Shown here in pieces: positions 60,418 through 63,339 of a stretch of DNA of 64,000 bases; the first letter of the stretch is position 1; each line of letters opens with the position of its first letter. The notes under the pieces are model-generated. The model had not been told where the DNA came from. It saw only the letters and a list, made by a program, of their open reading frames with translations, and did no database searches. The position numbers were made by a program, and so were the translations under genes. Origin of the DNA: Peptacetobacter sp. (GTDB lineage: Bacteria; Bacillota; Clostridia; Peptostreptococcales; Peptostreptococcaceae); assembly GCF_029264495.1 (NCBI RefSeq), contig NZ_JARIBH010000067.1, positions 1 through 64,000 of the forward strand. Direction: 5' to 3'.

Positions 60418-60451
60418 AAAAGGACACTGAATATTCAGTGTCCTTTTATTT
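60418..60451. terminator. Bidirectional terminator between convergent genes
   Basis: AAAAGGACACTGAATATTCAGTGTCCTTTTATTT. Confidence 0.9.
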
Positions 60452-61309
60452 AATTATTTTCCATTCATCAATCAATTTTTCCATAGAGTATGCTGCATTT
60501 GCTGGGCTAGTTGAAGGTAATTTTTCTATTTCTATACCTATATCATTTTTACAGTATTTATTATATAATTTAAAAGCTTTGTCACCATTTGCATATATTT
60601 TTTCTATTTTACTCTTTTTTATAATGGTATTTATATCATTTACTTCTACATCTTTTATACTGCTATCACTAGAGCCTTTTATTATACATGATTTTATAAC
60701 ATCCCAAATTGCTATATTATTTTTTAATAACATAGATTTTTTTTCATCTATATTATGAGGAAGTTCTGTTTTTGTAATCTTTGAAACTACTTCCCAGAAT
60801 CTATTTCTCGGATGTCCATAATAAAAACTCTCTTCTCTAGATTTTACAGATGGAAAACTTCCAAGAATCAAGATTCTTGAATTTTCATCATATATTGGTT
60901 CAAATGTATGATTTGCTCTTTCATACTTTTCATATTTTTTTATAAATTTTATAACTTTTTCTTCTATATTAAAAATTATCTCTTTCAATTCATCTTCATT
61001 CTTTCCATCAATGTCTTTTAATTTAAATTTCTCATCAAATTTTCTACTATTATCCAAAAAAGTTTCACCTCCTGTGGATACAATTATATCTACTTTAGGT
61101 ATTTCGGATATTAGCTTTGTATATTGATTTTTATCCATATCTATATCATAAATCTCTTTCATGATTTTTTTTATATTTTTATCTATACTTTTTAATTCTT
61201 TTCCCACTGAATATACTTCAAAAATATCTGGTGCTAATTTTTTACAAATTGCTGCTGCTATTTGACTTCTAGCTAAATTACTTATATCTACAAAAGCTAC
61301 TTTTAACAT
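60446..61309 (-). CDS. Fusion: degenerate ArsC/LMW-PTP-like domain + DNA glycosylase (deoxyinosine/uracil-DNA glycosylase-like)
   Basis: N-term LKVAFVDISNLARSQIAAAICKKLAPDIFEVYSVG (ArsC P-loop without Cys); C-term NHTFEPIYDENSRILILGSFPSVKSREESFYYGHPRNRFWEVV (UDG superfamily). Confidence 0.8.
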   Translation of the reverse strand: MLKVAFVDISNLARSQIAAAICKKLAPDIFEVYSVGKELKSIDKNIKKIMKEIYDIDMDKNQYTKLISEIPKVDIIVSTGGETFLDNSRKFDEKFKLKDIDGKNEDELKEIIFNIEEKVIKFIKKYEKYERANHTFEPIYDENSRILILGSFPSVKSREESFYYGHPRNRFWEVVSKITKTELPHNIDEKKSMLLKNNIAIWDVIKSCIIKGSSDSSIKDVEVNDINTIIKKSKIEKIYANGDKAFKLYNKYCKNDIGIEIEKLPSTSPANAAYSMEKLIDEWKIIK

Positions 61310-61367: not shown

Positions 61368-61718
61368 TTAAATATTCTCTTTTATCAACTTTATAATTTC
61401 TTCTGTATTTAATATTCTTCCAATAGATACTACTTTTTCATTTATTACAATTCCTGGTGTAGACATAACACCATAGGTAACAATTTCTATTAAATCTTCA
61501 ATTTTTTCAATATCAGCATCAATATTTAGTATTTTAATAGCTTCTTTTACACTATCATTTACCTTATCGCACTTTTCACAACCTTCACCAAGTACTTTTA
61601 TACTAATTTTTTTACCTTGTAAATCTATATTTTCTTTTTCATCTACAATTTTATCTAATTCTTCTTCTGTTTCTTTTGTATACGATTTTTTATTTTTCCC
61701 AAATCCTAAAATTCCCAT
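61368..61718 (-). CDS. Thioredoxin-like redox-active disulfide protein
   Basis: KISIKVLGEGCEKCDKVNDSVKEAI (CxxC), MSTPGIVINEKVVSIG. Confidence 0.85.
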   Translation of the reverse strand: MGILGFGKNKKSYTKETEEELDKIVDEKENIDLQGKKISIKVLGEGCEKCDKVNDSVKEAIKILNIDADIEKIEDLIEIVTYGVMSTPGIVINEKVVSIGRILNTEEIIKLIKENI

Positions 61719-61792: not shown

Positions 61793-62782
61793 TTATATTA
61801 ACATATATCCAAATATATTAAATATATATCCTATAAATAATATACCCATTGTTACAATTACAAAAAATAATGTTAATAACTTTGGTTTAACTGCCTTTCT
61901 TAGCATTATCATTGAAGGAAAAGATATTGCTGTTACGCCCATCATAAATGATAGTACTGTTCCAAGTCCTGCCCCTTTATTAAATAAACTTTCGGCTATT
62001 GGTACTGTTCCAAAGATATCTGCATATATTGGTACTCCAACAATTGTAGCTATAGGTACTGAATACCATTTTTCCGATCCAAGTATTTTTTCTATAAAAA
62101 CAGACGGTATTACATTGTGTATTATAGCTCCTATAAATACACCTATAAATATATATGGTGCTACATTTTTTACTGTATCAACAACTTTTTCTCTAGCAAA
62201 TAATAATCGTTCTTTTATTGATGGATTTTTTATTTCTATATCCACATTTGGAGCTTTTCGAATAAATTCTTCTATTTGATTTTCCATATTAGATTTTTCT
62301 ATAATAATTCCTCCTATTACAGCTAAAATCAAACCAACCACAACATATGCAATTGCTATTTTTATTCCAAAGATACTTGTTAAAAGTACTAATGAACCTA
62401 AATCGACAAGTGGTGATGATATTAAAAATGAAAATGTTGCTCCAATAGGTATTCCCGCACTTGTAAATCCTATAAATAATGGTATTGATGAACATGAACA
62501 AAATGGTGTTAATGTTCCCAAAAGTGCTGCTAAAATATTTATTTTTATTCCTTTAAATTTTTCTAGAATTTTTTTCGTTTTTTCTGGTGGAAAATAGCTC
62601 TGAATGTATGATATAAAAAATATTAATACTGATAATAATATAAATATTTTTATAGTGTCATATATGAAAAACTTTAAAATACCATAAATTATTGATTTAT
62701 CATTTAATCCTATTAACATTAATAATTTTCCAACTAATGTATTAATCCATTTCATACCTAGTATTTGATTTTGAAAAAACAT
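61793..62782 (-). CDS. ArsP/DUF318-family permease
   Basis: 329 aa; TPFCSCSSIPLFIGFTSAGIPIGATFSFLISSPLVD. Confidence 0.88.
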   Translation of the reverse strand: MFFQNQILGMKWINTLVGKLLMLIGLNDKSIIYGILKFFIYDTIKIFILLSVLIFFISYIQSYFPPEKTKKILEKFKGIKINILAALLGTLTPFCSCSSIPLFIGFTSAGIPIGATFSFLISSPLVDLGSLVLLTSIFGIKIAIAYVVVGLILAVIGGIIIEKSNMENQIEEFIRKAPNVDIEIKNPSIKERLLFAREKVVDTVKNVAPYIFIGVFIGAIIHNVIPSVFIEKILGSEKWYSVPIATIVGVPIYADIFGTVPIAESLFNKGAGLGTVLSFMMGVTAISFPSMIMLRKAVKPKLLTLFFVIVTMGILFIGYIFNIFGYMLI

Positions 62783-62866: not shown

Positions 62867-63196
62867 TTATAACTTTTTATTTTCACATTCACAAAAATTA
62901 TTATCTGAATTTAATCTAGCAGATGCCATAATATCACTTAACAAATCAAAAACTGAATCAAATGAGTTTTCAGCTATACTATAATGCATCCACTTTCCCT
63001 CTTTTCTTCCAATTACTATTTCAGATTCACACAAAATTTTCATATGGTGAGAAAGTGTAGACTGACTTATTTTTAATTCTTCAAGTAATTTACATGCACA
63101 TTTTTCTCCGTTTTTTAAGAGTTCTAAAATCTTTATTCTATTTTCATCGCTTAAAGCCTTAAATATCTTTATTTCTTTTTTATATAACGAATTCAT
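62867..63196 (-). CDS. ArsR/SmtB-family metalloregulator
   Basis: FKALSDENRIKILELLKNGEKCACKLLEELKISQSTLSHHMKIL (CxC metal-binding motif). Confidence 0.92.
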   Translation of the reverse strand: MNSLYKKEIKIFKALSDENRIKILELLKNGEKCACKLLEELKISQSTLSHHMKILCESEIVIGRKEGKWMHYSIAENSFDSVFDLLSDIMASARLNSDNNFCECENKKL

Positions 63197-63218: not shown

Positions 63219-63247
63219 TATTATATTTAATGTATCGATATTTGTCA
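63219..63247 (-). promoter_or_regulatory. arsR promoter with palindrome TATCGATA in spacer
   Basis: Minus strand TTGACAaatatcgatacattaaaTATAAT: 17-bp spacer; palindrome at 63233-63240. Confidence 0.7.
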
Positions 63248-63339
63248 ATGTATTGTCTAGGTATCTCTTTTTCATAAAAAAACTCTGAAGTCGATATTTA
63301 ATCAACTTCAGAGAACTTCTAGATTCTTTTAAAATTTTA

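Follow-up and report, generated by a model that had tools for sequence, protein, structure and literature searches.

An arsenate reductase-like domain without catalytic cysteines fused to a hypoxanthine-DNA glycosylase at the end of a Peptacetobacter ars operon

The last gene of a predicted ars operon in Peptacetobacter sp. was found to encode a 287-aa protein in which an arsenate reductase (ArsC)-like N-terminal half, devoid of catalytic cysteines, is joined to a DNA-deoxyinosine (hypoxanthine) glycosylase (HDG). We think it probable that this protein is a hypoxanthine-DNA glycosylase which carries an inert relic of a reductase and which came under an arsenic-responsive ars promoter through a fusion that joined two operons. 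The gene occupies positions 60446-61309 on the minus strand of the window, the whole 64,000-nucleotide stretch that was analysed (contig NZ_JARIBH010000067.1, positions 1 to 64,000). Its ArsC/LMW-PTP-fold half, delimited by alignment and an AF2 model, comprises codons 1-130 (60920-61309), and its conserved glycosylase half, delimited by profile TIGR04274 and PDB entry 2l3f, comprises codons 131-287 (60449-60919). The frame was open from end to end, as had been stated in the original prediction, which was made from the DNA letters alone.

The C-terminal half scored 139.2 bits against TIGR04274 (DNA-deoxyinosine glycosylase), far over the equivalog cut-off of 80, and its top PDB match, both by sequence and by fold, was 2l3f from Methanosarcina acetivorans (E 4e-22). 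All 17 family-invariant columns, defined as those identical in 95% or more of 58 homologues, were kept. The original prediction had placed this half in the UDG superfamily, which held, but a generic uracil glycosylase was not what the data showed; the protein belongs rather to the hypoxanthine/deoxyinosine family (family 6), whose members excise hypoxanthine and not uracil (PMC8307549, PMC5387724). HDG activity is likely to be retained. The family 6 relatives are standalone proteins or, in some cases, fused to DNA-3-methyladenine glycosylase I (Tag), whereas the window protein bears an N-terminal ArsC-fold domain.

The match of the N-terminal half to ArsC models was weak (NF010053, E 5e-7; Pfam LMWPc, 22 bits); it spanned residues 3-123 and lay below all curated cut-offs. 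A Foldseek search with the AF2 model (mean pLDDT 92.8, pTM 0.77) matched 2myu (TMt 0.82), 1jf8 (0.78) and 1rxe, that is, ArsC structures of both the thioredoxin and the glutaredoxin type. The least confident block of the model (69) was residues 81-90, the former redox loop. The model supports an LMW-PTP/ArsC fold but does not prove stability, since the alignment behind it included intact homologues, so that it shows the family fold more than the stability of this copy. Together with the profile matches and the alignment to 24 homologues, it bore out the reading of this half as an ArsC-type domain without cysteines, and the lack of structural similarity to ArsC that could have overturned this reading was not seen.

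Compared with 24 Cys-intact homologues, the window protein carried the substitutions C8D, C13A, C81G, C85L and P100I. At the former CX5R P-loop (codons 8-14, 61268-61288, minus strand), which is now D-ISNLA-R, the window reads FVDISNLARS, the sister fusion described below reads FICVHNSCRS and the standalone relatives read F[IV]CVHNSCRS, with C-VHNSC-R in the sister and in all standalone relatives aligned. The nucleophilic cysteine is therefore gone, with Asp8 in its place, and N11, R14 and S15 are retained. The former redox loop MGCxxxCP (codons 79-86, 61052-61075, minus strand), placed by alignment and model, reads TGGETFLD in the window, MGCGVSCP in the sister and MGCNVxCP in the standalone relatives; G81 and L85 replace a redox cysteine pair present in 24/24 homologues, and one in-frame codon deletion adjoins the loop. 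The VDISNLARS P-loop and the missing second-loop cysteines had both been read correctly in the original prediction. The Asp-Pro general-acid motif is also broken, D99 being retained and P100 changed to Ile, so that the window reads DI where the sister reads EDP and the standalone relatives DP.

Thioredoxin-coupled ArsC relies on a trio of redox cysteines, which in the enzymes of pI258 and B. subtilis are Cys10, Cys82 and Cys89 (PMC2714181). The window N-half resembles these enzymes in its fold, in its alignment over the whole half, in the P-loop N, R and S, and in its operon position beside a thioredoxin-like gene, but differs from them in having neither the nucleophilic cysteine nor the redox pair, and DI for DP. 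Judged from these residues, it is probably a catalytically dead reductase, and a weak ArsC match of this kind should not be annotated as a capacity for arsenate reduction. The closest relatives of the N-half were clostridial standalone ArsC-like proteins ('low molecular weight phosphatase family protein'), with about 40-47% identity to the window N-half and about 60% to that of the sister. They differ in being separate proteins of 130-150 aa with CVHNSCRS and MGCNVxCP, and they are putatively active. Because the standalone relatives scanned and the sister N-half also scored below the curated arsenate-reductase cut-offs, we can only infer arsenate reduction as the ancestral activity, from the residues and the operon context. 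No second ArsC of the same group and no second HDG were found in the window genome. Takeover of reduction by a paralogue was also considered, but the one other LMWPc protein in the window genome looks like an ordinary phosphatase, because LMWPc matches of equal score occur in both sister species.

Three genomes of the genus were compared, namely the window genome (G000), G001 and G002, with one genome representing the window species. In G002, a single-contig genome, the same fusion was present (L031, 7346-8209), with 65% identity over 287/287 residues and in the same operon. This confirmed that the 287-aa ORF is a genuine fusion and neither a chance ORF nor an assembly artefact, and absence of the fusion from all relatives, which the original prediction had named as fatal to it, was not observed. 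The architecture, operon and promoter in G002 were as in the window; however, its cysteines and DP were all intact, and B3/4 and Ogt genes followed, which are missing at that place in the window. The Cys-free loops were thus confined to the window species, and conservation of those loops in other genomes, a check that the original prediction had suggested, was not seen. The sister fusion is apparently a bifunctional ArsC-HDG, as far as its residues indicate.

In G001 the two genes were separate, as arsR-ArsP-ArsC (L032) and HDG-B3/4-Ogt (L072), which lie about 23 kb apart on the same contig and strand. The B3/4 and Ogt genes downstream of the junction in G002 stand in the same order as in the HDG-B3/4-Ogt cluster of G001. 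Outside the genus, G062 and G064 carried arsR-ArsP-Trx-ArsC without HDG. The separate genes in G001 and the shared HDG-B3/4-Ogt order point to two operons joined head-to-tail, with arsC fused to HDG. The simplest history is that a rearrangement, possibly a deletion, joined the end of the ars operon to the start of the repair operon in the common ancestor of G000 and G002. The cysteines would then have been lost after the fusion, on the window branch only, as the alignment suggests. The three species form a rare before-and-after series, with the genes apart (G001), the fusion intact (G002) and one half dead (window).

Two further genes make up a small operon with HDG in G002 and G001 (L031, 5987-7192; L072, 6516-7668), one for a B3/4-domain protein, which is tRNA-synthetase editing-like, and one for an Ogt methyltransferase. 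In the window genome no PF01035 match was found, while 14/14 control genomes and both sister species had one, and the linked B3/4 gene was not found either, so that both were probably lost after the fusion; with an assembly completeness of 94.5%, these absences are probable rather than certain. About 3 kb upstream of the sister ars operon lies a 414-aa ORF that is TnpB/IS605-like by appearance (L031, 13185-14429), a possible agent of rearrangement.

The ArsC-HDG fusion was seen only in G000 and G002 among the three genus genomes and the wider samples. Samples of 71 genomes from the family, 395 from the order and 399 drawn from the phylum, which partly overlap and amount to about 800 other genomes up to phylum level, contained no other case, and neither did 72,556 plasmids. 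One scan of genome contigs yielded nine HDG-type loci only. In the literature collection searched, no paper named both deoxyinosine glycosylase and arsenate reductase.

Upstream of the fusion, all on the minus strand, lie genes for a thioredoxin-like protein of the ArsE/MTH895 type with a CxxC motif (61368-61718; TIGR00412, 93 bits, over the cut-off), an ArsP_1 family permease with a CSC motif (61793-62782; PF03773, 225 bits) and an ArsR/SmtB repressor with CxC near the DNA-recognition region (62867-63196; NF033788, 92 bits, over the cut-off). The operon thus reads arsR-ArsP_1-thioredoxin-fusion, and profiles and gene order upheld the original placement of the fusion last in it, where arsC stands in relatives. 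One consensus promoter, a perfect TTGACA-17-TATAAT (63220-63248, minus strand), lies upstream of arsR and carries an operator-like core, ATATCGATA, in its spacer; the sister has both the promoter and the core. The remaining promoter-like sites on the minus strand were weaker (at most 10/12), and the total was near that in shuffled sequence. A strong terminator-like hairpin (60418-60447) closes the unit, between the fusion gene and a convergent purC-like gene, and the ribosome-binding site of the fusion gene is GGGGTGAG, before an ATG. Repressor, permease and ArsC member, the last dead by sequence, form one predicted transcription unit, and expression of the HDG would be arsenic-dependent, from the ars promoter. 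An ArsR-type promoter can in this way acquire a DNA-repair enzyme when operons are joined.

With the operon's own genes as controls, window-sister identity was 75-83% for the other operon genes, 76% for the C-half and 52% for the N-half. Measured with the sister and the outgroups as reference, the N-half branch lengths were 1.08 substitutions per site in the window and 0.085 in the sister, so that the window N-half evolved about 12 times as fast, an acceleration confined to the window branch; those of the C-half were 0.20 and 0.088. Identity to the separate G001 ArsC was 40% for the window N-half and 62% for the sister N-half; identity of the C-half to the G001 HDG was 67% for the window and 66% for the sister. 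Among the 40 N-half columns that were at least 95% invariant in 24 homologues, 18 were changed in the window and 2 in the sister, and none of the 17 invariant C-half columns was changed in the window. The N-half change rate was 0.45 at invariant and 0.46 at moderately conserved columns, which indicates general relaxation.

In a codon model, omega was 0.19 for the window N-half and 0.035 for the background (2dlnL 64), and omega = 1 was rejected by 15 log units (2dlnL 30). Neutral time was shared between the two halves in this model, because saturated dS made a branch omega estimated on the N-half by itself uninformative. The omega is an average over one branch with saturated dS, so that a branch constrained at first and neutral later could yield this value too. 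In neutral simulations run to 55-60% identity, the frame stayed open in 0.1-0.4% of runs (P 0.001-0.004), from which read-through of the N-half is probably still required.

The reading that we favour, a glycosylase with an inert reductase relic, would account for all of these patterns. Reductase function would have become dispensable in the window lineage, where the cysteines and flanking active-site residues were then lost. The glycosylase, which appears to have neither a separate promoter nor a clear start of its own, would be translated from the old arsC start codon, and the N-half would be kept open and foldable because the start codon, ribosome-binding site and promoter of the glycosylase all sit upstream of it. 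Nonsense changes and changes that cause bad misfolding or aggregation would be purged, since the glycosylase is needed, and the catalytic residues would drift. This reason for the retention of the N-half is our inference. A gene fusion can thus trap a dispensable domain, which loses its catalytic residues and keeps its reading frame. The window-only loss of cysteines and the window-only acceleration favour the relaxed decay of the reductase half that the original prediction had offered as one option; repurposing as a sensor or tether, its other option, gained no positive support. Counting against a relic are the N-half omega below 1, the well-formed predicted fold and the persistence of N11, R14 and S15 in the P-loop. 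More than the open reading frame may be conserved in the N-half, although the model perhaps overstates this because intact homologues were in its alignment.

The same features, namely a fold predicted intact, the retained P-loop residues and a window-branch omega that marks the domain as not fully neutral, would also suit a Cys-free ArsC fold with a new job, as a scaffold, an anion or nucleotide binder, a thioredoxin tether or a regulator of the glycosylase, and regulatory pseudophosphatases are known elsewhere (PMC10211241, PMC8269279). However, losses as frequent at invariant as at moderately variable columns are the pattern of general relaxation, and the Cys-free version occurred in no second species, so that no conserved new motif can be recognised. 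Thiol-based arsenic sensing is implausible, because all four conserved cysteines are missing. We regard a new job of this kind as unlikely. A still more doubtful proposal is that the Cys-free fold is a working accessory domain of the HDG under ArsR and that the sister fusion is an arsenic-induced bifunctional detoxification and repair enzyme; with the intact fusion of the sister, a link between detoxification and repair could be tested directly.

It is improbable that the fusion is being undone by an internal restart. A sequence scan found a strong Shine-Dalgarno-like AGGAGGTGA (61065-61073) followed by an in-frame TTG, which is codon 85 and lies 10 nt past GGAGG (together 61055-61073, minus strand), and this possible internal start would release the glycosylase on its own, preceded by a 48-aa leader, codons 1-84 becoming leader. 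The two elements are built from codons of the lost redox loop; this was the only case of GGAGGT with an in-frame start in 18,479 codons of 56 window genes and was absent in the sister, a uniqueness that was noticed after the fact. In addition, TTG initiates translation weakly and its distance of 10 nt is long, and codons 1-84 contain none of the stops that would be expected if the first start were dispensable, which speaks for continued use of the first start.

A working reductase or phosphatase that acts by another mechanism has very little to recommend it: the fold is kept in the model and Asp8 occupies the nucleophile position, but the protein lacks the nucleophile, the two redox cysteines and the proline of DP, and thioredoxin-coupled ArsC requires its three redox cysteines (PMC2714181). 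An assembly or sequencing artefact, which the draft state of the window genome (88 contigs) might suggest, is ruled out as the origin of the fusion, since fusion and operon recur in the single-contig genome of another species (G002), and the frame is open and conserved across the junction; as the origin of the cysteine losses it is very improbable.

Some other unusual fusions were seen among the genomes searched. In two genomes of one genus of order-level relatives, an HDG carried an N-terminal Tag domain (L014, 1492-2541, by HMM; L018, 868-1980, by sequence similarity), and this two-glycosylase protein suggests that HDG is prone to N-terminal fusion. In a Bacteroidales MAG, an open frame of 595 aa carried HDG as its N-terminal part (L069, 3962-5749). 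In a 313-aa protein (L040, 4229-5170), an intact ArsC domain followed an N-terminal part with cysteine-rich stretches, and an ArsR-like gene lay nearby.
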